Below, in pieces: positions 5,304 through 17,123 of a stretch of 22,549 bases of DNA (its first letter is position 1; the number at the start of each line of letters is the position of its first letter). Where the stretch lies: positions 1 to 22,549 of the IMG/VR virus record IMGVR_UViG_3300020061_000027; one strand, 5' to 3'. The DNA is from a virus. Made by a program: the position numbers and the translations under genes. Below the pieces are notes generated by a model that was given only the letters and a program-made list of their open reading frames with translations, searched no databases and was not told where the DNA came from.

Positions 5304-5614
5304 TGGCTGACAGCATCAAGGAGGTGCTCGGCGCGATCTCCAAAGCCGCAGCGGCTCAAGGCATCGAGTTCAAGCTGCACCGCAAGGGCAAGAAACACCT
5401 GATCTACCACCTGGGCGACACCGTCGTCCTACCCGTCCCGCACAGCACCGTGCCGTCGCGGATCAAGTTCGAGATGTTCAAACAATGCGAGGCAGAGCTG
5501 GGCTACCGTTGGTGGCAACCTGCCGACCGTCGAGTGGAAGCAGTTCAACATGACGTACCTACGACCTACGCCCGAGGCTATCGGGGACCCCGAGGCAAGC
5601 ATGTCCCAGCTTGA
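5303..5614 (+). CDS. HicA-like (dsRBD-fold) small protein with odd C-terminal tail
   Basis: ATG at 5303. Residues 12-75 contain GIEFKLHRKGKKHLIYHLGD, then VVLPVPHSTVPSRIKFEMFK and QCEAELG, which matches the HicA mRNA-interferase pattern (R-x-KGSHH-x-Y, then VPHP...P..T...ILKQ..L). The His after GKK fits the HicA catalytic histidine. No HicB antitoxin is seen next to it. The last 30 residues (after YRWWQ) have poor codon choice, whereas the +1 frame there looks coding, so the original C-terminus may have been altered by an indel. RNA cleavage is a family inference; it may be a domesticated RNA-binding protein. Confidence 0.55.
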   Translation: MADSIKEVLGAISKAAAAQGIEFKLHRKGKKHLIYHLGDTVVLPVPHSTVPSRIKFEMFKQCEAELGYRWWQPADRRVEAVQHDVPTTYARGYRGPRGKHVPA

Positions 5615-5705
5615 GTTCCGCAACGGGATGAAGGGGGCGTTCTGGGGCATCGTCTTCAGCGCGCCGGTATGGGCGGTTCTGGTCTGCTGGCTGGTGACTC
5701 GGTGA
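5550..5705 (+). CDS. Small single-span membrane protein, 51 aa
   Basis: ATG at 5550 with GGAAG upstream. The product begins MTYLRPTPEAIGDPEASMSQ; residues 30-50 form a hydrophobic segment (AFWGIVFSAPVWAVLVCWLV) fit for one transmembrane helix, with N-terminus probably inside. It overlaps the tail of the HicA-like frame by 65 nt and the next GTG by 4 nt. A holin-like or membrane-modifying role is possible but not shown. Confidence 0.6.
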   Translation: MTYLRPTPEAIGDPEASMSQLEFRNGMKGAFWGIVFSAPVWAVLVCWLVTR

Positions 5706-6118
5706 GCCAGTGGATTCGTCAAGGCAGCAATCAAGAGATTCAGCTCGACGTTCTCCCGCAAGGTGAGCGTGTTTTCATCCAGGGGTCCAACGGCACCGTG
5801 AAGATCAGGGGAGACGTCGGCGGCACGATCATCGTGCAAGGTAGTAGTGCCATGGTGAAGATCGGTGGTGTCATTCGTAGCACTGCTCGGGTGACTGTGC
5901 AGGGGTCTAATCCCGTCCTCAAGCATCACGGCAGGGACCCTGGAGCCACTGTAGTGCTCCAGGGTTCCAACGCTGAGGAGATCGATAGGAGCAGCAAGCG
6001 TGTGACCGCTCATCCTCCGGATCAAGAGCGGTGGGTCGACGCTGCGCTAGGCCCGAAGGTTCACGACGAGGTCACCATTCAGAAGAGTGGTCGTCCTCGC
6101 GAGCTGTGGGGCACCTAG
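5702..6118 (+). CDS. Beta-solenoid repeat protein (bactofilin-like repeats)
   Basis: GTG at 5702 overlaps the previous stop (GTGA). The 138-residue product carries about five repeats of a 20-25 residue unit with the signature V-x-x-QGSN/S followed by a VKI strand: IRQGSNQEIQ, VFIQGSNGTVKI, IIVQGSSAMVKI, VTVQGSNPVLKH, VVLQGSNAEEI. Regular short strands with conserved Gly-Ser-Asn turns imply a right-handed beta-helix of the kind found in bactofilins and phage spikes. The C-terminal 40 residues are non-repetitive. Assembly into filaments or use as a structural rod is inferred. Confidence 0.6.
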   Translation: MSQWIRQGSNQEIQLDVLPQGERVFIQGSNGTVKIRGDVGGTIIVQGSSAMVKIGGVIRSTARVTVQGSNPVLKHHGRDPGATVVLQGSNAEEIDRSSKRVTAHPPDQERWVDAALGPKVHDEVTIQKSGRPRELWGT

Positions 6119-6342
6119 TGGCCAACGGCATGTGGGACTTGAGCGGCTGGCGCATCATGACCCCAGAGGAGATCGCTCGGGACGAGGAGTGGGCACGCCA
6201 AGAGCGCGAGGAGTCTCTGAAGCGCTGGCCGATGTCTCAGCGCCGCGATCGGTGCTACAACTGCGGTTGCTTCATGCCCAACGTCTCGTACGACCACACT
6301 CGCTGCAAGCGGTGTGGTGAGTCGTTCAACAGTCTCCAATGA
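6118..6342 (+). CDS. Small zinc-ribbon protein, 74 aa
   Basis: GTG at 6118 overlaps the previous TAG by one base (ATG at 6130 is an alternative). The N-terminal half is an acidic helix (EEIARDEEWARQEREESLKR). The C-terminal half contains CYNCG...CKRCG, two CxxC pairs spaced 14 residues apart, typical of a zinc ribbon. The stop overlaps the next ATG (ATGA at 6339-6342). DNA or RNA binding is likely; the role is unknown. Confidence 0.65.
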   Translation: MANGMWDLSGWRIMTPEEIARDEEWARQEREESLKRWPMSQRRDRCYNCGCFMPNVSYDHTRCKRCGESFNSLQ

Positions 6343-6794
6343 TCAAGCATTGCCCGAAGTGCAAGACAGACAAGCCCATCGACGCCTTTTACCCCACGAA
6401 GGCGGGAACCACGGCTTATTGCAGGCCTTGCCACCTGGTTTACATGAAGGAACGGCGAGATAGCCGCAAGGCCAGTGTGGGTGACGCAACGGCTTCTTAC
6501 ACGCGCCGCAAGGCGCTCCAGCAGCGCAACAAGGCCATCGTCTGGGACTATCTGCAGAATCATCCTTGTACTGATTGCGGAGAGTCTGATCCGATCGTGC
6601 TGCAGTTCGATCACGTTCGTGGAGTGAAACTAAAAGACATCAGCATCCTGGTGACTGGTGGATATTCTCTCGAAGTCCTGACGGATGAGATCGCGAAGTG
6701 CGAGGTCAGGTGCGCTAATTGCCATATCAAAGTGACCATGCAGAGGGCTAGGTGGAGCAAGCGTCCGCACTTCTACACGCACAACCCGAGATAA
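6339..6794 (+). CDS. HNH endonuclease with N-terminal zinc finger
   Basis: ATG at 6339 overlaps the upstream stop. Residues 5-31 hold two CxxC pairs (CPKC...CRPC). The HNH part is CTDCGESDPIVLQFDHVRG, then a KCEVRCANCHIKVT segment near residues 120-135, the layout of phage HNH enzymes with CxxC...DH...CxxCH. The catalytic Asp-His (FDH) and the final CxNCH are present. It is the last gene before the tRNA region. It probably cleaves DNA; a free-standing homing or packaging-associated role cannot be separated. Confidence 0.8.
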   Translation: MIKHCPKCKTDKPIDAFYPTKAGTTAYCRPCHLVYMKERRDSRKASVGDATASYTRRKALQQRNKAIVWDYLQNHPCTDCGESDPIVLQFDHVRGVKLKDISILVTGGYSLEVLTDEIAKCEVRCANCHIKVTMQRARWSKRPHFYTHNPR

Positions 6795-6798
6795 TCCC

Positions 6799-6827
6799 TT
6801 CACGATGGTTGGGTCTTCTGATAAGGT
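6799..6827 (+). promoter_or_regulatory. Promoter of the first tRNA cluster (leaderless type)
   Basis: TTCACG (6799-6804), 17 nt, TAAGGT (6822-6827). The ATG at 6835 begins 8 nt after the -10 box, the same distance seen at four other starts in the window. Confidence 0.5.
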
Positions 6828-6834
6828 CTGATTC

Positions 6835-6897
6835 ATGTTCGAGCTGTTCCGCCCCGTGCCCCCGATTTGGCGATATTCGCCGTCTCTGGGTCAGTAG
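6835..6897 (+). CDS. 20-residue leader peptide upstream of tRNA-Pro/Trp/Tyr
   Basis: The ORF reads MFELFRPVPPIWRYSPSLGQ and ends in TAG at 6895-6897. Its ATG lies 8 nt after a -10 box, so the mRNA would be nearly leaderless. It contains four Pro codons, one Trp and one Tyr, and the three tRNAs that follow are Pro, Trp and Tyr. The last codons overlap the left arm of the inverted repeat at 6870-6925. This layout is that of a ribosome-sensing leader (attenuator). Translation is not proven. Confidence 0.45.
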   Translation: MFELFRPVPPIWRYSPSLGQ

Positions 6898-8714: not shown

Positions 8715-8785
8715 GCTCCATTAGCTCAATGGTAGAGCGGCGACTTCTAACCTCGCTGGTGCCGGTTCAACTCCGGCATGGGGCG
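8715..8785 (+). tRNA. tRNA with anticodon CTA (amber-reading candidate)
   Basis: Acceptor GCTCCAT/ATGGGGC, D-arm GCTC-AATGGTA-GAGC, anticodon arm GCGAC-TTCTAAC-CTCGC, T-arm GCCGG-TTCAACT-CCGGC, discriminator G. Standard numbering from the D-stem puts CTA at 34-36, which reads UAG. The 31-39 pair is C-C. Reading it as TCT (Arg) would break more stem pairs, and a separate Arg(TCT) tRNA exists at 12591. Confidence 0.65.
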
Positions 8786-8863
8786 CTCGGGAAATAATCT
8801 GCTTGCGCTGCCAAGCAACAACGCATACCCTGATCAAGTCACCTCGGGCAAGCCTGAGTGGCC

Positions 8864-9010: not shown

Positions 9011-9032
9011 CGACGCAGCAGACCATATCACT

Positions 9033-9137
9033 GGCGAAAACCAGAATCGAACCGTCTGTTGCATCAACTTGAATGCCAGGCCGATGAGTATTTCGGTTAT
9101 CGCCGGTTCAATTCCAGTCTCGGGGACCACATCCCCG
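9033..9137 (+). other. Spacer hairpins with an isolated T-arm-like sequence
   Basis: GGCGA-AAACC near 9033-9043 pairs with GGTT-A-TCGCC near 9094-9104. It is followed by GCCGG-TTCAATT-CCAGT, a T-arm-like segment with no matching acceptor, then a hairpin CTCGGGG-accacat-CCCCGAG (about 9117-9137). It may be a decayed tRNA. No anticodon can be assigned. Confidence 0.3.
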
Positions 9138-10086: not shown

Positions 10087-10134
10087 AATGACGACCAAAC
10101 GGGCCATGATCCCCACGCTCTACTCGTCGTCATT
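10087..10134 (+). repeat. 30-nt-loop hairpin element, copy 1
   Basis: AATGACGAC (10087-10095) pairs with GTCGTCATT (10126-10134). The loop is 30 nt, starts CA, and has TGATCCCCA at loop positions 12-20. It lies between tRNA-Glu and tRNA-Gly. Confidence 0.8.
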
Positions 10135-10141
10135 CAAACTG

Positions 10142-10211
10142 ACCTCCGGCGCGCTCTGCGGAGGTGTTGTGGGCAGGACTGACAACCAAGCTCTACCCCG
10201 CCGTCAGTCCT
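10142..10211. repeat. Two further spacer hairpins
   Basis: ACCTCCG (10142-10148) pairs with CGGAGGT (10159-10165). AGGACTGAC (10175-10183) pairs with GTCAGTCCT (10203-10211) with a 19-nt loop; the second could be a shortened relative of the 30-nt-loop element but lacks its core. Confidence 0.5.
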
Positions 10212-10225
10212 ACAGGGCGTCACAC

Positions 10226-10296
10226 GCGGATGTGGCATAGTGGCCGTGCTCTAGCCTTCCAAGCTAGCTACGGGAGTTCGATTCTCCTCTTCCGCT
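10226..10296 (+). tRNA. tRNA-Gly(TCC)
   Basis: Acceptor GCGGATG/CTTCCGC, anticodon arm CTAGC-CTTCCAA-GCTAG, T-arm GGGAG-TTCGATT-CTCCT, discriminator T, as in bacterial Gly. Confidence 0.88.
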
Positions 10297-10306
10297 CAAT
10301 CCCCCA

Positions 10307-10406
10307 GAGCCTGACGGCAGCAAGGGTGTAAGGCCTCTGAAGCGTAAAAGGTGACGCACGCCCTTCGTACGGGTGAGAACGCAGTTCGATTCTGCGCAGT
10401 GGCTCA
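10307..10406 (+). other. tRNA-like element, class II size, anticodon not assignable
   Basis: GAGCC (10307-10311) pairs with GGCTC (10401-10405), and CGCAG-TTCGATT-CTGCG is a good T-arm. A variable-arm-like CCC...GGG hairpin is visible. At 100 nt with no clear U33 loop, it is either a Leu/Ser tRNA that I cannot fold or a degenerate one. Confidence 0.35.
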
Positions 10407-10422
10407 GGTCGTGCCCGTGGCC

Positions 10423-10458
10423 GAGGAGGGCAGACGGGACTAGCTTAAAACCCTCCTC
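10423..10458. repeat. Spacer hairpin, 8 bp
   Basis: GAGGAGGG (10423-10430) pairs with CCCTCCTC (10451-10458), 20-nt loop. It ends 3 nt before tRNA-Thr(TGT). Confidence 0.5.
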
Positions 10459-10461
10459 ACT

Positions 10462-10532
10462 GCTTCTATCGTCTAGTGGCAAGACAGCTGCCTTGTAAGC
10501 AGCCTACGGGCGTTCGATTCGTCCTAGAAGCT
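10462..10532 (+). tRNA. tRNA-Thr(TGT)
   Basis: Acceptor GCTTCTA/TAGAAGC, anticodon arm GCTGC-CTTGTAA-GCAGC, T-arm GGGCG-TTCGATT-CGTCC, discriminator T. Confidence 0.88.
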
Positions 10533-10565
10533 CGCAACCACACTCGTCGAGACGGGTGGGCCAGG

Positions 10566-10581
10566 AGGCCCTTCGGGGCCT
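10566..10581. repeat. UUCG-tetraloop spacer hairpin
   Basis: AGGCCC-TTCG-GGGCCT, 6 bp with a hyperstable C(UUCG)G tetraloop, between the two Thr tRNAs. Confidence 0.5.
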
Positions 10582-10592
10582 GTTGCACCAGT

Positions 10593-10664
10593 GCTAGATT
10601 CGTCCAGTGGTAGTGACTCGGTCTTGGTATGACCGAAACCGGGGTTCGATTCCCCGATCTAGCT
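10593..10664 (+). tRNA. tRNA-Thr(GGT)
   Basis: Acceptor GCTAGAT/ATCTAGC perfect, anticodon arm CGGTC-TTGGTAT-GACCG, T-arm CGGGG-TTCGATT-CCCCG, discriminator T. Confidence 0.88.
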
Positions 10665-10717
10665 CGTCGGTATCGGTTACATGTCTGCGCAAGCAGGCCG
10701 ATAGACATCGATAATCA

Positions 10718-10813
10718 GCAGGAGTAGCTCAGCATGGAGATGTCCTCCCTGAGGGGACTCAGAGCACCGGGATCACACCCCGGAGGCCGTCGGTTCGAAT
10801 CCGACCTCCCGCC
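10718..10813 (+). tRNA. tRNA-Val(CAC), copy 2, with hairpin inserted in the D-loop
   Basis: Acceptor GCAGGAG/CTCCCGC, anticodon arm CCGGG-ATCACAC-CCCGG and T-arm GTCGG-TTCGAAT-CCGAC are normal. The D-loop between GCTC (10727) and GAGC is about 31 nt, because it contains a GTCCTC-cctga-GGGGAC hairpin. Total 96 nt. A second Val(CAC) exists at 9843. Confidence 0.7.
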
Positions 10814-10817
10814 CCAC

Positions 10818-10888
10818 GCGCTTGTAGTGAAGTGGCATCACGCGACCTTGCCAAGGTCGTAGTGCGGGTTCGATTCCCGCCTGGCGCT
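10818..10888 (+). tRNA. tRNA-Gly(GCC)
   Basis: Acceptor GCGCTTG/CTGGCGC, D-stem GTGA/TCAC, anticodon loop TTGCCAA, T-arm GCGGG-TTCGATT-CCCGC, discriminator T. Confidence 0.88.
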
Positions 10889-10902
10889 CGCAGTAACAGA
10901 AT

Positions 10903-10974
10903 GGCTCTGAGGCCGAACGGTTAGGCGCTACCTTGTCAAGGTAGTCGTAGCGGGTTCAACTCCCGTCAGGGTCG
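10903..10974 (+). tRNA. tRNA-Asp(GTC)
   Basis: Acceptor GGCTCTG/CAGGGTC, anticodon arm CTACC-TTGTCAA-GGTAG, T-arm GCGGG-TTCAACT-CCCGT, discriminator G73 as required for Asp. Confidence 0.88.
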
Positions 10975-10989
10975 CAGTGGGTTGAGTCG

Positions 10990-11084
10990 CCCCTGAAAGA
11001 ATGGGCAACGGCAATAATGCGCGGGGAGACAATCCGCCCCACCACCAGTCGTGCGGTGGTGGACCCGAACACCGAAGGGGCGAC
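10990..11084. repeat. Nested spacer hairpins between tRNA-Asp and tRNA-Met
   Basis: GTCGCCCCT near 10990 pairs with AGGGGCGAC near 11076; inside, CCACCACC pairs with GGTGGTGG around AGTCGTGC. No RNA gene is recognised in this 145-nt gap. Confidence 0.4.
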
Positions 11085-11119
11085 GGTCCCGCGAAACCGG
11101 CGGTATAACCGGTCTCGAT

Positions 11120-11191
11120 GCCTCTGTGGCCTAACGGTAGGGCTACGTGCTCATAACGCGGAATGTCTTGGTTCGACTCCAAGCAGAGGTA
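11120..11191 (+). tRNA. tRNA-Met(CAT), elongator type
   Basis: Acceptor GCCTCTG/CAGAGGT fully paired (unlike the initiator at 8937), anticodon loop CTCATAA, T-arm CTTGG-TTCGACT-CCAAG, discriminator A. A tRNA-Ile with modified C34 cannot be excluded. Confidence 0.8.
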
Positions 11192-11295
11192 CGTGCCAGA
11201 TCTTGGCTTAGGATCGCGACTTCGCTGGTGCCCTTCGGGGAGGACTGCTATCGCGACACGGTTGCAAGATCGCCCGGGGCTTGGCACCCCCACCT

Positions 11296-11369
11296 TGCCA
11301 TGTGGCGTAAGTGGTAAACGCGCCTCGCTGATAACGAGGAGACACGGGGTTCGACTCCCTGGATGGCAA
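11296..11369 (+). tRNA. tRNA-Ile(GAT)
   Basis: Acceptor TGCCATG/GATGGCA (7-66 G-G mismatch), D-stem GCGT/ACGC, anticodon arm CCTCG-CTGATAA-CGAGG, T-loop TTCGACT, discriminator A. Confidence 0.87.
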
Positions 11370-11383
11370 CGCAAGATAGTTAT

Positions 11384-11456
11384 TTCCCTGTAGCTCAGTG
11401 GATAGAGTGTCTGACTACGAATCAGAAAGCCGGGGGTTCGAATCCCTCCAGGGAAA
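11384..11456 (+). tRNA. tRNA-Arg(ACG)
   Basis: Acceptor TTCCCTG/CAGGGAA perfect, anticodon arm TCTGA-CTACGAA-TCAGA, T-arm GGGGG-TTCGAAT-CCCTC, discriminator A. Reads CGN after A34-to-inosine conversion by host TadA. Confidence 0.88.
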
Positions 11457-11457
11457 C

Positions 11458-11545
11458 TGGGTCATGGTGTAGTTCAGAAAAGCACGCCCCGTGGACGTCG
11501 CAAGACTAGGTAGCGGGGAGGCGGGCGGTGAAACTCCGTTTAGAC
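11458..11545 (+). other. Spacer with tRNA-like traces
   Basis: GGGTC (near 11459) can pair with GACCC (near 11543), and TGTAGTTCAG resembles a D-arm start, but no anticodon arm or T-loop is acceptable. CCCCG/CGGGG forms an inner hairpin. Possibly a decayed tRNA. Confidence 0.25.
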
Positions 11546-11551
11546 CCTCCT

Positions 11552-11623
11552 GTCCGTGTAGCTCAGTGGTAGAGCACCTGCCCGACATGCAGGCGGTCCG
11601 AGGTTCGAATCCTCGTATGGACA
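11552..11623 (+). tRNA. tRNA-Val(GAC) with C33
   Basis: Acceptor GTCCGTG/TATGGAC, anticodon arm CCTGC-CCGACAT-GCAGG, T-arm CGAGG-TTCGAAT-CCTCG, discriminator A. Position 33, almost always U, is C here. Confidence 0.8.
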
Positions 11624-11631
11624 CGGGGCAT

Positions 11632-11659
11632 TGGTCTCCTCACCCTCGTCATGGGAGAC
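11632..11659. repeat. Spacer hairpin GGTCTCC/GGAGACC
   Basis: A 7-bp hairpin with a loop of about 14 nt in the gap after tRNA-Val(GAC). Confidence 0.4.
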
Positions 11660-11698
11660 CCGGTAGAGGACACACCCGACTGGCCGGTGCCTTGGCAC

Positions 11699-11782
11699 GA
11701 AATGGGTCCTCACGCCTTCACCTGCGGATCATGCGCCTGGCCTCCGACGCCGGGATGTCCAGTTCAACTCTGGATGGGGGCA
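11699..11782 (+). other. tRNA-like element with good T-arm, anticodon unclear
   Basis: TCCAG-TTCAACT-CTGGA is a clean T-arm and TGGGGGC can pair with GCCTTGG (11699-11705) mainly through wobble. The 84 nt suit a class II tRNA. I find no acceptable anticodon loop. Confidence 0.3.
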
Positions 11783-11882
11783 CGTTGGTCTCACCGCCCA
11801 CAAGGCGACAAGGGTAGTTGTTCTGGCGATCACCATGGCTATGCCGCCAGGGCTAGGGGAAACGTCGGCCCCGCCGATACCT
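11783..11882. other. Spacer between a tRNA-like element and tRNA-Arg(CCT)
   Basis: It contains a CTGGCG/CGCCAG hairpin near 11823-11850. No gene is seen. Confidence 0.3.
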
Positions 11883-11956
11883 GCCGCAGTAGCTCATCAG
11901 GATAGAGCGGCGCTTTCCTAAAGCGCAGGCAAGGGGTTCGAGTCCTCTCTGTGGCA
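11883..11956 (+). tRNA. tRNA-Arg(CCT)
   Basis: Acceptor GCCGCAG/CTGTGGC, anticodon arm GCGCT-TTCCTAA-AGCGC, T-arm AGGGG-TTCGAGT-CCTCT, discriminator A. Reads AGG, rare in high-GC hosts. Confidence 0.88.
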
Positions 11957-12003
11957 CGCTCGACCTATAGTCATGCTATAGTCGAACACGTAGTACCCAA
12001 GAG

Positions 12004-12402
12004 GGGCCTGACAGGTTTCGACTGGTGAATGGACAATTGAACAGCGGGCGAGCGTTGGACACACTTCTGCTCTGAGTGAACGTGTCAAACCAATAAGCGC
12101 CAAGGATGTTGACGCAACGGTGACCGACGCCGAGATCGAAGCCTTCTTCAACGAAGAGGCTCTGGTCGACGCTTAAGTCACCAGCCACCCGGTTAGCCTG
12201 CTGCTACGCAGCGCTGGGGGCTTCAAAGCTAGTAGCAGCACAACGTCGCACTGATCCATGCTGGGACGTCCTAAACTGCAGCAGATCAAAGGAACCACAC
12301 TCCCTGTCTCTGGGGTCGTATGGGGGTATTCAATCAGGGACTGCGCCCGGAGAACGCTTTTGGAAAGACATCAGGACCCGAGTTCGATTCTCGGCAGGTC
12401 CA
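12004..12402 (+). ncRNA. ssrA: tmRNA (trans-translation RNA)
   Basis: The 5' end GGGCCTGACAGGTTTCGACTGG has the tmRNA D-arm signature. The 3' end carries a T-arm CCGAG-TTCGATT-CTCGG and CAGGTCC pairing with GGGCCTG (12004-12010). The tag ORF runs from the likely resume codon GCC at 12099 to TAA at 12174-12176 and encodes 25 residues, starting AKDVDATVTDAEIEAFF and ending EEALVDA. The core TDAEIEAFF resembles the Bxz1 phage tag as I recall it. The C-terminus LVDA differs from the usual LAA degron. The following 200 nt hold the pseudoknot region. A double TATAG motif lies just upstream. Confidence 0.9.
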
Positions 12403-12405
12403 CGC

Positions 12406-12458
12406 CACCCGATTGCCATGTTGGGCATGATTATCCATAGAAGTGTCGCGATCGGGTG
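12406..12458 (+). repeat. 30-nt-loop hairpin element, copy 2
   Basis: CACCCGATTGC (12406-12416) pairs with GCGATCGGGTG (12448-12458), one G-T. The 31-nt loop starts CA and has TGATTATCCA (a 10-nt core variant) from loop position 12. It lies between tmRNA and tRNA-Gln. Confidence 0.75.
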
Positions 12459-12462
12459 TCTT

Positions 12463-12534
12463 TGGAGACTGGGGTAACGGCAGCCCACGGGTTTTTGGTA
12501 CCCGGCAGTCCAGGTTCGAATCCTGGGTCTCCAG
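12463..12534 (+). tRNA. tRNA-Gln(TTG)
   Basis: Acceptor TGGAGAC/GTCTCCA with the weak T1-A72 pair and G73 typical of Gln; anticodon arm CGGGT-TTTTGGT-ACCCG, T-arm CCAGG-TTCGAAT-CCTGG. Confidence 0.88.
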
Positions 12535-12536
12535 CA

Positions 12537-12588
12537 ATCTCGACGACCAGGCTTGAGACGATGCCCAGAGAAGATTCGTCGTCGAGAT
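12537..12588 (+). repeat. 30-nt-loop hairpin element, copy 3
   Basis: ATCTCGACGAC (12537-12547) pairs perfectly with GTCGTCGAGAT (12578-12588). The 30-nt loop starts CA and has CGATGCCCA at positions 12-20. It lies between tRNA-Gln and tRNA-Arg(TCT). Confidence 0.85.
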
Positions 12589-12590
12589 CT

Positions 12591-12656
12591 GCCTCTGCAT
12601 GGATGGCTCAGGGCCTTCTAAACCCGACAGTGGGAGTTCGACTCTCTCCAGGGGCA
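12591..12656 (+). tRNA. tRNA-Arg(TCT), short D-arm
   Basis: Acceptor GCCTCTG/CAGGGGC, anticodon loop CTTCTAA on a GGG/CCC stem with C-A at 31-39, T-arm GGGAG-TTCGACT-CTCTC, discriminator A. The D-arm is minimal (about 3 bp), giving 66 nt. Confidence 0.7.
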
Positions 12657-12693
12657 CAACGATTTTCGATAGACGCTGCCATAGGCGATGGAG

Positions 12694-12778
12694 TAAAGTC
12701 TCCGTCATGACCGCTAAACGCACCTCGCACCCAGTTCTGGGGGCGTTGGTGAACGCGGCTATCACTCTTGCCTTTTAA
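12694..12778 (+). CDS. Leaderless 23-codon ORF overlapping tRNA-Lys(TTT)
   Basis: A -10 box TAAAGT (12694-12699) ends 8 nt before the ATG at 12707. The ORF runs to TAA at 12776-12778 and begins MTAKRTSHPVLGALVNAAIT, hydrophobic toward its end. It overlaps the 5' half of tRNA-Lys(TTT) and contains one AAA codon. It could be a leader peptide or chance; the promoter geometry matches four other starts in the window. Confidence 0.3.
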
Positions 12779-12812
12779 GCTTGAATACCGGGATCGAGAC
12801 CCGGACGCCCCA
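12740..12812 (+). tRNA. tRNA-Lys(TTT)
   Basis: Acceptor GGGGCGT/ACGCCCC perfect, D-stem GTGA/TCAC, anticodon loop CTTTTAA. The anticodon stem CTTGC/GCTTG has two T-T mismatches (28-42, 29-41). T-loop ATCGAGA starts with A54. Last tRNA of the array. Confidence 0.75.
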
Positions 12813-12825
12813 CAGCTCCACTACA

Positions 12826-12856
12826 CTTCTTCTCAAGACGAGAGGAGGTGAAGAAG
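12826..12856 (+). promoter_or_regulatory. Hairpin enclosing the SD of the 12857 gene
   Basis: CTTCTTC (12826-12832) pairs with GAAGAAG (12850-12856), which ends next to the ATG at 12857, and GAGGAGG lies in the loop. Folding could limit or present the ribosome site. Confidence 0.35.
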
Positions 12857-13102
12857 ATGAGCGTCAGCGCAAAGTTCAAGGTGCAGAGGGTGACTCCGAT
12901 GTCGCCGATCAAGGGCAAGGATGGGTCCATGAAGGACTCAGCCGAGGTCGAGATGGTTCCCGACTACGCCGGTGACCGCAACAAGGACTGGTCGGAGTAC
13001 ACCCCTAGCGGCGTGATCCGGATGTACGTGAACGGACCTGCCCTACTGCAACTCAAGCAGGGCACCGCCCTCACGGTGACGTTCGAGGCCGCCGAAGACT
13101 AG
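12857..13102 (+). CDS. Hypothetical protein, 81 aa
   Basis: ATG at 12857 is chosen over the GTG at 12848 because GGAGG lies at 12843-12847, about 9 nt upstream. The product (MSVSAKFKVQRVTPMSPIKG...) is a compact beta-rich protein ending LTVTFEAAED. Its pattern of a VQRV strand, a GSMKDSAEVEMVPDYA middle and a final TVTFE strand recurs in actinophage small proteins of unknown function. It may be expressed by read-through from the tRNA array. No function is assigned. Confidence 0.7.
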   Translation: MSVSAKFKVQRVTPMSPIKGKDGSMKDSAEVEMVPDYAGDRNKDWSEYTPSGVIRMYVNGPALLQLKQGTALTVTFEAAED

Positions 13103-13182
13103 CCTCGAACGAGTGGCGATGCACAAGGGTGTCCGGAGCCGCCACTACCGACGGGCTATAGGCCGACTATAGGTTGATGTGA

Positions 13183-13188
13183 TACAGT
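13183..13188 (+). promoter_or_regulatory. -10 box of a leaderless transcript (13196 gene)
   Basis: TACAGT ends 8 nt before the ATG. Two TATAGG motifs (near 13158 and 13170) lie upstream; a -35 box is not clear. A GTGGCG/CGCCAC hairpin near 13112-13145 could end the upstream transcript. Confidence 0.5.
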
Positions 13189-13195
13189 CTTCGAC

Positions 13196-13669
13196 ATGAC
13201 CGAACTTCGAGAACTGATCCGCAAGGTATCAAGTCAGTATCCCAACGCTTCCTCAGGTGAGCTTGCTCGACACGTCGCCAAGTTGACGCCAGCAGACGTC
13301 CTGCTGGAGTACTACGAGGAAGCCTTGCGTCCTCAAGTCGCCGAGGTCTTGCGGCTGGATCGCAACGAAGCCATCACCAACGCCCTGTCCGACTCGCCGC
13401 ATCCACTGCCACAGCAGCCTCGTCGCTCCAAGAAGGTCGCAGGCATCGCCAACTGGTGGGCCAAGATGCTGGAACAGATCATTCCTCTGGCCGACGGCCC
13501 CAAGAAGTTGGGCGACGCCACTGTGGAGGACCTGAACTTCGCCATCGATCGCCGCAAGGCCCAGATCGAGCAGGACAAGATCAAGGTTGCCGAGTTCGAG
13601 CAGTTGCGTGACTGGATGCTCACTCACAACGCGACGACCCTGCGAGAGGCACCGCCGATGACGGCCTGA
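13196..13669 (+). CDS. Hypothetical helical protein, 157 aa
   Basis: ATG at 13196 has no SD; the -10 box 8 nt upstream suggests leaderless translation. The product (MTELRELIRKVSSQYPNASS...) is mainly helical, with a Pro-rich linker (PHPLPQQPRRSKK, about residues 68-80) and a C-terminal coiled-coil-like helix (AIDRRKAQIEQDKIKVAEFE, about residues 116-135). The stop is followed within a few bases by the first hairpin of the tandem array. No family is recognised. Confidence 0.7.
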   Translation: MTELRELIRKVSSQYPNASSGELARHVAKLTPADVLLEYYEEALRPQVAEVLRLDRNEAITNALSDSPHPLPQQPRRSKKVAGIANWWAKMLEQIIPLADGPKKLGDATVEDLNFAIDRRKAQIEQDKIKVAEFEQLRDWMLTHNATTLREAPPMTA

Positions 13670-13672
13670 GAC

Positions 13673-13725
13673 TTGGCGTCGGCCATTCAAGCAGCGATCA
13701 CCCACCGCCCCATTGCCGCCGCCAA
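13673..13725 (+). repeat. 30-nt-loop hairpin element, copy 4 (tandem array 1)
   Basis: TTGGCGTCGGC (13673-13683) pairs with GCCGCCGCCAA (13715-13725), one T-C mismatch. The 31-nt loop starts CA and has CGATCACCCA from position 12; the extra base is inside the core. Confidence 0.8.
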
Positions 13726-13731
13726 CCAACT

Positions 13732-13783
13732 TCCAGATCAGCCAAAAGGACCTCGATACCCATCTCCTCCACGCTGATCTGGA
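13732..13783 (+). repeat. 30-nt-loop hairpin element, copy 5 (tandem array 2)
   Basis: TCCAGATCAGC (13732-13742) pairs perfectly with GCTGATCTGGA (13773-13783). The 30-nt loop starts CA and has CGATACCCA at positions 12-20. CCAACT precedes the stem. Confidence 0.87.
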
Positions 13784-13790
13784 CCCAACT

Positions 13791-13844
13791 TCCCCTCCAG
13801 CCATTTCCCCAACGAAATGTCCATTATTCACACGCTGGAGGGGA
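13791..13844 (+). repeat. 30-nt-loop hairpin element, copy 6 (tandem array 3)
   Basis: TCCCCTCCAGC (13791-13801) pairs perfectly with GCTGGAGGGGA (13834-13844). The 32-nt loop starts CA and has CGAAATGTCCA from position 12; two extra bases lie in the core. CCAACT precedes the stem. Confidence 0.82.
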
Positions 13845-13850
13845 CTCAAC

Positions 13851-13906
13851 TTCCGAGACCGACCACATCCCTATCGTCACCTAAAACCTGAACGTCGGTC
13901 TCGGAA
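13851..13906 (+). repeat. 30-nt-loop hairpin element, copy 7 (tandem array 4)
   Basis: TTCCGAGACCGAC (13851-13863) pairs perfectly with GTCGGTCTCGGAA (13894-13906). The 30-nt loop starts CA and has the diverged core CGTCACCTA from position 12. It ends just before the leader of the 13937 gene. Confidence 0.82.
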
Positions 13907-13936
13907 CACCCACTCACACAGAAGGAGCATCATCAC

Positions 13937-14947
13937 ATGAGCACCAACAAGACTCCCCAGGCCGACCATGAGGGAAGCGAAGCCCATATGGCCTCCGTCG
14001 GTCTGGGAGACATCCTGCGCAGCCCCACCCTCGGCCTCGCCGCCGAGATCGTCGACGATCTGGAGCGCGTACGCATCGCCAATGAGAACCGTCTGCGCCA
14101 GCTCACGCGCACCGAGGAGGACTCCGACGGTATCGTGCGTGGCTTCGAGCTGGACCCTCGTCATCCTGACGTCTTGCGCCTACAGCATCTCGTCGACGGC
14201 CTGTCAGCCTCCTACGACGAGGCCGTGAAGAACCTCCAGAAGACCATGCGCGCCCACCCTCTCGGCGCGTGGGTCAAGAAGACCTCAGGGGTCGGTGAGA
14301 AGCAGGCCGCGCGCCTGCTGGCCGCGATCGGGGACCCGTACTGGAATGACGGGTTCTACCCCGACCCCGACGGCAAGATCGACAAGGAGGGCAAGGTCAT
14401 CACCTACCCCCGCGATCGTCCGCGCACCGTGTCCGAGCTGTGGGCGTTCTGTGGTTACCACGTACTTCCCAGCGGCCAACACACGATCGAAACCCAAGTG
14501 CCAGACGCCGCTGGGACCAACCTTCACGCCGGGAGTCATTGTTCCAGCGATACCCAGAAGACTTCCGCTCCCGGCGTGGCAGCTCGTCGCAAGAAGGGCG
14601 CGAAGATCAACTGGTCCACGACGGCCAAGATGCGCGCATTCCTCATCGCCGAGTCCTGCGTCAAGGCCAAGACCTCGCCCTATCGCAAGGTCTACGACGA
14701 GACGCGAGCCAAGTACGCCGACGCCGTGCACAAGGTGCCCTGTGAGCGCTGTGGACCGTCAGGGAAGCCTGCGCTGCCTGGTTCTGCCCTCAACCCTGGA
14801 CACCAGCACGCACGCGCCCTGAGGGCGATCAGCAAGGCCGTGCTCAAGGACCTCTGGATCGAGTCGAAGCGACTCCACGAACTGCAGCAGATGCAGACCA
14901 TGTACGACTCGGATTCCAATTCAGGAACGTCTGCGTCTGCTGCCTAA
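13937..14947 (+). CDS. IS110-family transposase-like protein (Transposase_20 part only)
   Basis: ATG at 13937 follows the canonical CACTCACACAGAAGGAG leader. The 336-residue product has an N-terminal helical region (about 35-105). It then has the Transposase_20 pattern: TSGVGEKQAARLLAAIGDP (116-134, helix-hairpin-helix), RTVSELWAFCGYHV (163-176), RRKKGAKINW...KMRAFLIAESC (218-241) and HARALRAISKAVLKDL (291-306). The N-terminal DEDD RuvC-like catalytic domain of IS110 transposases is absent, so it looks domesticated or dependent on a partner. A CxxC/HxH group (CERCG...HQH, 269-291) may bind zinc. Residues about 177-215 are encoded by two hairpin elements inserted in frame. Four hairpins precede the gene and two follow it. 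It probably binds structured DNA or RNA; activity is unknown. Confidence 0.6.
   Translation: MSTNKTPQADHEGSEAHMASVGLGDILRSPTLGLAAEIVDDLERVRIANENRLRQLTRTEEDSDGIVRGFELDPRHPDVLRLQHLVDGLSASYDEAVKNLQKTMRAHPLGAWVKKTSGVGEKQAARLLAAIGDPYWNDGFYPDPDGKIDKEGKVITYPRDRPRTVSELWAFCGYHVLPSGQHTIETQVPDAAGTNLHAGSHCSSDTQKTSAPGVAARRKKGAKINWSTTAKMRAFLIAESCVKAKTSPYRKVYDETRAKYADAVHKVPCERCGPSGKPALPGSALNPGHQHARALRAISKAVLKDLWIESKRLHELQQMQTMYDSDSNSGTSASAA
14467..14516 (+). repeat. 30-nt-loop hairpin element, copy 8, inside the IS110-like gene
   Basis: TCCCAGCGGC (14467-14476) pairs perfectly with GCCGCTGGGA (14507-14516). The 30-nt loop starts CA and has CGAAACCCA at positions 12-20. It is read in frame. Confidence 0.85.
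14525..14578 (+). repeat. 30-nt-loop hairpin element, copy 9, inside the IS110-like gene
   Basis: CACGCCGGGAGT (14525-14536) pairs with GCTCCCGGCGTG (14567-14578), one T-G. The 30-nt loop starts CA and has CGATACCCA at positions 12-20. In tandem with copy 8, 58 nt apart. Confidence 0.85.
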
Positions 14948-14955
14948 AAGCCACT

Positions 14956-15005
14956 CGACGGTGACCAACTATGAGGCGAAACCCAAGACCCCTGTGTCGC
15001 CGTCG
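14956..15005 (+). repeat. 30-nt-loop hairpin element, copy 10
   Basis: CGACGGTGAC (14956-14965) pairs with GTCGCCGTCG (14996-15005), one T-G. The 30-nt loop starts CA and has CGAAACCCA at positions 12-20. It follows the stop of the IS110-like gene. Confidence 0.83.
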
Positions 15006-15015
15006 GGTCTGAACT

Positions 15016-15073
15016 GATCCGCCGACGGCCATCCGCGACTCGATACCCAGGACTAGGACGCCGTCGGCGGATC
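15016..15073 (+). repeat. 30-nt-loop hairpin element, copy 11
   Basis: GATCCGCCGACGGC (15016-15029) pairs perfectly with GCCGTCGGCGGATC (15060-15073). The 30-nt loop starts CA and has CGATACCCA at positions 12-20. Its left arm begins exactly 60 nt after that of copy 10. It lies between convergent genes and may also end transcription. Confidence 0.88.
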
Positions 15074-15075
15074 TT

Positions 15076-16998
15076 TCAGTCATCCAATCCAATGAGCCAG
15101 TCGATACTGCCCGACTCTGGCACGTCGATCATGCCATCGCCGTACGACAGCTCTTCTCTGGTTCCTTGCACCGCCTCGGCGAGCTGCCGACGCGCCTCGC
15201 AGACCTGCCAGATCCGCTCCTCGACCTTGGACTCCGTCGTGATCATCACGTAGGCCGTCAGGCCGTCCAGATGACTGTCGGCGCGGTCGATGCGGGAGTT
15301 GCGTTGGGTCAGATCGTCGTAGCTGTAGAGCGGATCGATCGAGATGACGTAGCGGGCCTCCTGGAAGTTCAGCCCGTGAGTTCCGGCATCGGAGGTCAGG
15401 AAGCAGGTGATGTCCGAGTTGGTCTTGAAGTCGTCCTGGGCCTTCTGAGAGGCCTTGTCGGTCTGGCCGGTGCCGTAGTGCAAGACGTGGGGCACCTTGA
15501 TCAGCGGGTCCATCGGCAGGATACCGAGCTGAGTCCAGTGGCAGAACACCACGGCCTTGTCCTGGCCCTCCCGGATGCCGTCCAGGCGGTCGTTGAGCAT
15601 CTCCAGCTTGTTGCTCGCCGACGGCACGCACAGGCTGCGGTGCTCGGTCCAGATCTTCTGGGCGATCTCGTTGTCGGAGTGCTGCAGCACCGCCGGGTTG
15701 ATCGCGGCCAGCCGCATGGCCAGATAGTGCGGGGCGCGGCTCTCGCCCTTCTCCCGGCTCTCCCGGGCGTCGGCGGTGATGATCTCGTTGATCTCGGCCA
15801 GCTCCGAGGTCATCGGCACCCACTCCGGGATGCACTGGATTCCTTTGAACTGCTCCTTGATGCCCGGCTCGGTCTTGCGCACCGCCATCATCCGGTCCCC
15901 GACCCGGTGGCGGACCTCATGCAGCTCGGGTAAGTCCCAGTCATATTTGGTGAGGGTGAATTGGCCACCGTTCTTGGCCTTGATCGGGATCGAGGTGACC
16001 TTCTCGGCGTAGCGGTCGACGAAGTCCTGCTTGGATCCCAGCGGATTGTCGCGGGGGTAGGAGTCCAGGGAGAAGACGTCCCGGAAGCGCAGTGGGTTGC
16101 CGCCGACCACGGTGGCCGACATGGGCCACACGATCGCCGTACAGCCCCGTACGAGCTTGTCTAGGGCCTTGCGGGCCTTGTTCTGTCCCGACTCGGCGAT
16201 GACCTTATGGGCTTCATCCAGGACGAACAGCACCCGACGGCCTGCGGTCAGCTCCTCCAGCGCATCGAAGTCGACCCACAACTTTTCGAAGTTCATCACG
16301 AAGGCCTGAATGCCCCCGCCGTCGAGCCGATGATGGGTATCACACACGATGTGGACGGCGGAGGCAGCTTCAGCATATCGTGCCCGCCGCGTGGCGGGTT
16401 TGGCGTGGTCGTTGATCATGACCCGCAGCCCGGCGTCGTTGACCCAGGTGCGCTTGAGGTTCTCCTTGAGCTTGCTCAGCGTGCAGGCGATCACCACGTC
16501 GACGTCGCCGGAGTCGAGCAGGGCCTTCACCGCCGCCCCGGAGCAGAAGCTCTTGCCCGCCCCCGCCGACCAATTCCAGAAGAACATCCGCTCGCCGTGG
16601 GTGCCGCCCTGGCGCGCACGCTCCAGCGCGTGGTTGAGCCCGAAGTTCTGAAACGCCCGCAGCTCGTAGCCCTCGATCTCCAGGGGTAGTGACCAGCGGG
16701 CGTGATCGGCCAGCATGGCCTTCGTCGACGGGGTGAAGAGGTAGGAGTAGCCGTCCTTGGTCAGTTGGGCGGCGAACTGGTCGAGTAGGTGCAGACCGTT
16801 GAGGATGAAGTGTCGACTCATCCAGTCGTGGTACTCGGTGTAGAAGGCGCCGCGTGCGTCGGCGTCGAGCGGCTCGACGTGCAGATATCCCTCGAATTCA
16901 GGGTGGTCGGCGAAGATCACGATCTTGGAGAGGTCGACGCCTTGGTCCAGAAACGTGATCGCGGCAGCCTCGACATCCTCGACTACGCTGAATGCCAT
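15076..16998 (-). CDS. SNF2-type DEAD/DEAH helicase (DNA-dependent ATPase)
   Basis: The ATG at 16996-16998 (MAFSVVEDVEAAAITFLDQG) is chosen because a -10 box TAGACT ends 8 nt upstream; the frame open further upstream has no support. The 640-residue product shows Walker A GAGKS (146-150), DEAH box in VLFVLDEAHK (261-264), motif III SAT (294-296), motif V in TSDAGTHGLNFQEA and motif VI QRNSRIDR (565-572). The two RecA lobes and Q-R-x-x-R of superfamily 2 SNF2 enzymes are therefore complete. It probably translocates on DNA in replication or recombination. It is the only leftward gene after 3.2 kb. A hairpin element is inserted in frame at residues 212-229. Confidence 0.85.
   Translation of the reverse strand: MAFSVVEDVEAAAITFLDQGVDLSKIVIFADHPEFEGYLHVEPLDADARGAFYTEYHDWMSRHFILNGLHLLDQFAAQLTKDGYSYLFTPSTKAMLADHARWSLPLEIEGYELRAFQNFGLNHALERARQGGTHGERMFFWNWSAGAGKSFCSGAAVKALLDSGDVDVVIACTLSKLKENLKRTWVNDAGLRVMINDHAKPATRRARYAEAASAVHIVCDTHHRLDGGGIQAFVMNFEKLWVDFDALEELTAGRRVLFVLDEAHKVIAESGQNKARKALDKLVRGCTAIVWPMSATVVGGNPLRFRDVFSLDSYPRDNPLGSKQDFVDRYAEKVTSIPIKAKNGGQFTLTKYDWDLPELHEVRHRVGDRMMAVRKTEPGIKEQFKGIQCIPEWVPMTSELAEINEIITADARESREKGESRAPHYLAMRLAAINPAVLQHSDNEIAQKIWTEHRSLCVPSASNKLEMLNDRLDGIREGQDKAVVFCHWTQLGILPMDPLIKVPHVLHYGTGQTDKASQKAQDDFKTNSDITCFLTSDAGTHGLNFQEARYVISIDPLYSYDDLTQRNSRIDRADSHLDGLTAYVMITTESKVEERIWQVCEARRQLAEAVQGTREELSYGDGMIDVPESGSIDWLIGLDD
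16312..16365 (-). repeat. 30-nt-loop hairpin element, copy 12, inside the helicase gene
   Basis: On the minus strand GCCTCCGCCGTC pairs with GACGGCGGGGGC (12 bp, one T-G). The 30-nt loop starts CA and has TGATACCCA at positions 12-20. Orientation is that of the helicase coding strand, and it encodes residues 212-229. Confidence 0.75.
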
Positions 16999-17005
16999 GT
17001 TGATT

Positions 17006-17011
17006 AGTCTA
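17006..17011 (-). promoter_or_regulatory. -10 box of the leaderless helicase transcript
   Basis: TAGACT on the minus strand ends 8 nt before the ATG, with TTCGAT 17 nt further upstream as a weak -35. Confidence 0.5.
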
Positions 17012-17073
17012 TAGGACGAGGCCGCCAGATCGAAATGGCTAGGTTGCGCGGACACCCCAGCAGGTGTACAGAT

Positions 17074-17123
17074 AACGGTGCCCCTCTTCACAGGCCATGG
17101 AAGCCTCGGAGGGGCACCGTTTT
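17074..17123 (+). terminator. Rho-independent-type terminator
   Basis: AACGGTGCCCCTC (17074-17086) pairs perfectly with GAGGGGCACCGTT (17109-17121), 22-nt loop, followed by TTTT on the plus strand. It faces transcription from the left toward the 17.5 kb run. Confidence 0.65.

Follow-up and report, generated by a model that had tools for sequence, protein, structure and literature searches.

In some Tas clades, TIGR arrays take a stem-loop form, in which two spacers of 8-12 nucleotides (nt) are flanked by a box C (CCA) and a box D (UG), variable palindromic flanks replace the edge repeats, and the loop sequence may be conserved, as set out in the article text of Faure et al. (2025; PMC12045711). 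According to the same text, most TIGR systems are known from metagenomes alone, and the natural targets, the origin and turnover of the spacers, and the role of the nuclease-free TasA are named as open questions. The stretch of DNA analysed here, referred to as the window, is a viral fragment of 22,549 bases (IMG/VR record IMGVR_UViG_3300020061_000027) which holds a long tRNA array, a tmRNA gene, and a family of hairpins grouped around the gene at 13937-14947. We consider, with a probability of about 0.9, that a Bixzunavirus-like actinophage carries here a stem-loop TIGR-Tas system with a nuclease-free TasA, and that these hairpins are its guide units. This reading is directly supported by the anatomy of the units, the protein family, the linkage between both, and the evolutionary pattern, while transcription, processing, an 18-bp two-strand target and the resulting effect are proposed by analogy with published TIGR systems.

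Each unit consists of a variable, covarying stem closed by the succession CCA, 9 nt (spacer A), YG, a short linker, CCA, 9 nt (spacer B) and YG. The linker usually comprises four bases of an ATAC-like sequence, the left arm ends in C (or T), and the right arm opens with the G of the second box D. A scan with this grammar (stem ...Y/CA-N9-YG-linker-YYA-N9-Y/G... stem, the slashes marking the ends of the arms) finds 15 units in the window. An earlier note on this DNA had reported a family of 12 within 10087-16365, with loops of 30 nt (31 at 12406 and 13673, 32 at 13791) and a core beginning at loop position 12; all the copies lie where it placed them and these measures hold, but units also occur outside that range, and those at 9012-9065, 13956-14007 and 14884-14943 had been missed. 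The note counted nine variable bases before the core and ten after it; the first figure is right, whereas the tenth base after the core already belongs to the second box D, as its C or T, and the G that follows starts the right arm, so that the layout is 9 + 9. The units, all identified by the grammar scan, and the two genes associated with them are as follows.

9012-9065, plus strand: tigRNA unit between two tRNA genes; 12 bp stem, spacer A TATCACTGG, box D CG, linker AAAA, box C CCA, spacer B GAATCGAAC
10087-10134, plus strand: tigRNA unit in the tRNA array; A AACGGGCCA, B CGCTCTACT
12406-12458, plus strand: tigRNA unit after the tmRNA; A TGTTGGGCA, B TAGAAGTGT
12537-12588, plus strand: tigRNA unit after tRNA-Gln; A GGCTTGAGA, B GAGAAGATT
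13196-13669, plus strand: companion gene phrog_4604, 157 aa, unknown function, directly upstream of the array
13673-13725, plus strand: tigRNA unit, array 1; A TTCAAGCAG, B CCGCCCCAT
13732-13783, plus strand: tigRNA unit, array 2; A AAAGGACCT, B TCTCCTCCA
13791-13844, plus strand: tigRNA unit, array 3, with a 6-nt linker; A TTTCCCCAA, B TTATTCACA
13851-13906, plus strand: tigRNA unit, array 4, with box C CTA; A CATCCCTAT, B AAACCTGAA
13937-14947, plus strand: tasA, predicted solo Nop-domain TIGR-associated protein, 336 aa (NF052498, 9mty profile match, Foldseek)
13956-14007, plus strand: tigRNA unit inside the tasA reading frame (aa 7-24); A TGAGGGAAG, B TATGGCCTC
14467-14516, plus strand: tigRNA unit inside tasA (aa 177-194); A ACACACGAT, B AGTGCCAGA
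14524-14579, plus strand: tigRNA unit inside tasA (aa 196-215); A TTGTTCCAG, B GAAGACTTC
14884-14943, plus strand: tigRNA unit at the 3' end of tasA (aa 316-336); A TGTACGACT, B ATTCAGGAA
14953-15008, plus strand: tigRNA unit downstream of tasA; A ACTATGAGG, B AGACCCCTG
15016-15073, plus strand: tigRNA unit downstream of tasA; A TCCGCGACT, B GGACTAGGA
16311-16366, minus strand: tigRNA unit in frame inside the helicase gene (15076-17091, minus strand); A CATCGTGTG, B TCATCGGCT

The shuffled-sequence control proposed in the earlier note favours a true family, with a mean of 0.045 units and a maximum of one in 200 dinucleotide shuffles of the window, and the further copies that it expected in relatives have also been found. 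No unit was detected by the grammar in tas-free controls, which comprised two Bixzunavirus segments and 41 kb of the Barriga genome. For the 24 units with four-base linkers, 98.9% of the stem cells are paired (65.2% after shuffling), the covariation score is 0.93 (0.24 after shuffling and at most 0.20 when slid), and changes on both sides are observed at nine of the ten stem pairs. These data bear out the idea of a conserved structure whose stems are unrelated in sequence yet pair, and the segments once likened to guides or spacers correspond to the two-spacer anatomy of TIGR. Palindromic yet variable flanks in place of edge repeats are one criterion for stem-loop TIGR-Tas, and the window shows, as far as sequence can tell, every testable point of the definition given in the text of PMC12045711. 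The note knew of no described phage element of such form, but stem-loop TIGR arrays had already been described; it had also overlooked the Tas gene lying among the units.

Relatives were gathered with a Tas alignment, which yielded 69 viral and seven genomic loci, all of them, as far as named, from actinobacterial phages or prophages. Together with the first loci and the window they provide 400 units, which reduce to 342 distinct ones from about 80 related loci. Box C is CCA in 335 of these 342, the linker has 4 nt in 306, and box D, for which the grammar requires YG, is CG in 318 and TG in 24. Both spacers exhibit the same position profile, with A/T at position 1 and G/C at position 6, as expected if they occupy equivalent halves of a symmetric dimer.

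Hairpins of this kind might also be mobile or regulatory elements (REP- or attC-like DNA elements, mRNA processing or terminator hairpins) whose position near a Tas gene is a coincidence, and the dispersal of the copies, including an in-frame insertion in the helicase gene and copies in the tRNA array, would fit such a view. We regard this as very improbable: the stem differs in every copy of the window, while the 9-nt spacings and the CCA and YG motifs are fixed; 398 of the 400 units lie on the tas strand; and units cluster at tas (the 56 reference loci have 294 units, of which 198 fall in the 1 kb upstream of the gene, 71 inside it and nine just downstream) and are absent from the tas-free controls.

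The product of the gene at 13937-14947 is, judging from sequence comparison and a structural model, a TIGR-Tas protein of the nuclease-free TasA type. It scores 226.5 bits against the NCBIfam model TIGR_Tas_endo (NF052498; cut-off 100), and a search of PDB sequences with a 37-sequence profile retrieves TasR (9mty, 2.7e-28) and TasH (9.4e-15). The AlphaFold2 model (pLDDT 83.5, pTM 0.79) gives 11 Foldseek matches in the PDB at E<0.001, every one a TasR or TasH chain, with Nop5 and Prp31 as weaker matches behind them. Pfam reveals neither a nuclease domain (RuvC, HNH) nor any other match. In the profile comparison, alignment with 9mty sets in at TasR residue 140, beyond the RuvC domain, and the part of the model ahead of its first long helix amounts to about 30 residues. 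The missing nuclease domain and the start of the TasR match past RuvC argue for TasA, despite the word endonuclease in the NCBIfam name.

PHROGs label this gene a transposase (phrog_4285), and TasA shows weak similarity to the C-terminal region of IS110, so the hairpins could be conceived as bridge-RNA-like elements of an IS110-type RNA-guided transposase. IS110 with its bridge RNA does share with this locus a related RNA-binding domain and two-guide loops on stems. However, TasA reaches only 12.4 bits against the IS110 model (cut-off 140), no DEDD catalytic domain was found in it (there is no Pfam match), and the locus holds many short, independent units rather than one bridge RNA, which makes this explanation highly unlikely. 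Transposon ends were not noticed either, no search aimed at them having been made. The label transposase, or hypothetical protein, is also carried by genes of Gordonia phages (5608-6882 in locus L013, 2944-4143 in L120 and 2716-3972 in L121, in our numbering of tas loci), whose annotated start is probably too far upstream, reading through the hairpin array.

The closest described counterpart in the text of PMC12045711 is the TIGR-TasA stem-loop array of a Peromyscus gut contig. Both have a solo Nop-domain Tas, variable palindromic stems with two spacers (8-12 nt there) between box C and box D, and units in several groups around the gene. Unlike that system as it is presented there, the window also carries units in frame in tasA and in the helicase gene, as well as in the tRNA array; actinophage spacers are nearly always 9 + 9; the phrog_4604 gene is constant; and homologous slots retain their stems while changing their spacers. 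The dual-repeat TIGR systems with TasR or TasH (9mty, 21kl, 9vzx) share the Nop fold with a coiled coil, two 9-nt spacers, the CCA motif and a tetraloop-like linker, located in their loop repeat, but the window has stems instead of edge repeats and its TasA lacks RuvC and HNH.

By analogy with the published systems, the units would be transcribed together with the surrounding genes and then cut into single hairpins, each gripped by a TasA dimer through its two box C/D pairs. Spacer A would pair with one DNA strand and spacer B with the other at a site of about 18 bp. Such a site would read 5'-spacer A + reverse complement of spacer B-3', a layout derived in this analysis from the cut position and overhang given in the text of PMC12045711. 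TasA, having no nuclease, would bind, unwind and bend the site, and would thereby keep a rival element from being transcribed or replicated, or else modulate a host gene. Since the target searches described next were negative, it is guide turnover alone that points to rival mobile elements as the targets.

Several results weigh against this reading. Targets were sought as 18-nt sites composed of spacer A and the reverse complement of spacer B, with gaps of 0-2. Across 0.96 Mb of tas loci, searched in four geometries, the true spacer pairs gave about as many sites as re-paired controls did, and matches in the 41 kb of the Barriga genome equalled the controls. No aligned match appeared in the own host genomes of three prophages, and no consistent one in 98 mycobacterial genomes, where matches heap on GC-rich or junction stretches. 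About 12 18-mers compared with 50,697 phage records gave no exact match; only one of the target searches included a positive control, which was found, while another query was probably too long to report an 18-mer. The distant tas loci L065, L066, L074-L076 and L080/L088 have no units by the 9/9 grammar, and box D of the actinophage units is mostly CG, in contrast to the UG of TasR. Some 8/8 candidate units do occur in L066, and in L065, L066, L074-L076 and L080 the spacers may be of another length, or the box motifs different. Five patterns searched in IMG/VR matched here and there in unrelated, mostly low-GC phages. In one of these matches the guide pair of cluster A slot 4 (TTCGACGCACTGGTTCTA) agrees exactly and in frame with a phage lysozyme gene (L105 12130-12147), which was judged to be chance.

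The Nop-domain relatives include box C/D snoRNPs, which raises the possibility that the units are snoRNA-like guides and that the substrate of TasA is RNA, for instance tRNAs encoded in the array of the phage itself, rather than DNA. Some units indeed sit among tRNA genes, spacer B of unit 9012-9065 is exactly complementary to a tRNA T-arm (GTTCGATTC), and the whole 18-nt site predicted for this unit (TATCACTGGGTTCGATTC) resembles a tRNA variable loop plus T-arm. Sought in 396 actinobacterial genomes as a possible tRNA target, this site gave two one-mismatch matches, neither in a tRNA and about the number expected by chance, and the idea was discarded. The other 14 units of the window match the tRNA and tmRNA set no better than controls, and the closest solved relatives bind DNA. 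Archaeal and eukaryotic box C/D sRNPs (Nop5/Nop56, Prp31) have a similar Nop domain architecture, as the weak Foldseek matches reflect, but neither a fibrillarin-like partner nor a K-turn/L7Ae partner was noticed here, no systematic search for either having been made, and TasA is not known to modify RNA. On balance, an RNA-directed role seems improbable, and DNA-directed guide units of a TIGR-TasA system are preferred.

A characteristic of these actinophage systems is that guide units are carried within coding sequence. Units lie well inside the tas reading frame in 29 of 56 tas genes (53 units in total), and in none of the 56 is the frame interrupted. In the TasA of the window, residues 177-215 are filled by two units, the least certain loop of the model spans 185-209, and the TasA of cluster A mycobacteriophages lacks the segment 177-215. 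At the helicase unit, 16311-16366, the encoded protein has 16 extra residues, inserted in frame, compared with the helicase of Tonenili (68% identical); the unit lies on the minus strand of a minus-strand gene, as a function in RNA requires. The units in tas and in the helicase gene are thus both in frame and in sense orientation.

The guides themselves vary between related phages. Among 23 cluster A mycobacteriophages, the average difference in tas is 2.8%, or 8.4% when fourfold sites are taken separately. Stretches of stem and linker mostly show 0.4-3%, and in two cases 11-13%, but the loops show 28-49%. The spacers of two anchored slots differ by 57-66% on average, not far from the 73% seen between random unit pairs. 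Twenty of the 23 phages have distinct five-slot combinations, and pairs with seven differences in 660 bases of tas have none of the five slots in common. In some slot alleles one spacer is identical and the other different. Three Gordonia phages likewise keep the same stems with a spacer mismatch of 0.54-0.80 and a tas mismatch of 0.16-0.20, a pattern that includes a unit inside the tas coding sequence. These alignments suggest that bases mutate, single spacers are replaced and slots are reassorted; an early impression that slot alleles encode homologous peptides was not upheld by the matches. That the spacers turn over while the stems stay fixed suggests targets that change quickly, for which other mobile elements would be the simplest candidates.

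According to the text of PMC12045711, a TIGR system as a rule has a single protein besides its array, a ParB-like partner being the exception mentioned; no ParB match was seen here. A homologue of phrog_4604 lies directly upstream of tas in 55 of 56 loci. When all flanking reading frames are compared, just two families are general, tas (54 of 54 loci) and the phrog_4604 gene (53 of 54), the next family occurring in 10 loci once overlapping-frame shadows of tas are set aside. The Barriga version matches 76 phage records (75 from Mycobacterium), tas being found in 83, and among 198 mycobacterial genomes the gene appears in three places, each adjoining a tas with hairpins. Neither Pfam nor NCBIfam gives a match above cut-off for its protein, and the PDB has nothing significantly similar to the protein's helical model, which is confident (pLDDT 92). 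The phrog_4604 protein is a possible second component of actinophage TIGR systems. A broader and distinctly tentative proposal is a two-protein system with its own guide diversification, in which the phrog_4604 protein would work together with TasA to mature guides, choose targets or exchange spacers, single spacers would be replaced in constant stems, and guides would be stored within tasA and other genes. In cluster A phages (L012 2190-2993, L091-L101) the gene next after tas, or the one after that, bears the annotation Cas4 exonuclease; this neighbour is probably incidental, because it is not general in other loci.

Regarding the genomic setting, the nearest relatives of the window are Bixzunavirus (cluster C) mycobacteriophages, with about 80% identity over parts of the region. 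Two of them, Tonenili and Rabinovish, lack the tas-array segment and have no hairpin units by the same grammar. Matches to Rfam 15 above the gathering score correspond in the window to tRNA and tmRNA only, with none at the hairpins. Since the window is a fragment, the array may extend past its ends. Within the tRNA array, ARAGORN calls a tRNA with anticodon CTA at 8715-8786 (amber-reading type, labelled Pyl), and relatives annotate a stop tRNA at the matching position.

Three features of these loci do not appear in the article text of PMC12045711: in-frame guides in tasA and the helicase gene, slots with kept stems and swapped guides, and the phrog_4604 gene upstream. Some actinophage tas loci may already be listed in its supplement, outside the text compared, because the article cites a mycobacteriophage review for tailed phages. 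The TIGR-Tas system described here is present in about 76 records of cultured Mycobacterium phages (nearly all of M. smegmatis) and in Gordonia terrae phages. The M. smegmatis phages thus offer a tractable system that combines genetics in a known host with natural guide alleles and a candidate for the second component, and related phages with kept stems and swapped guides turn the aim of the guides into an approachable question.
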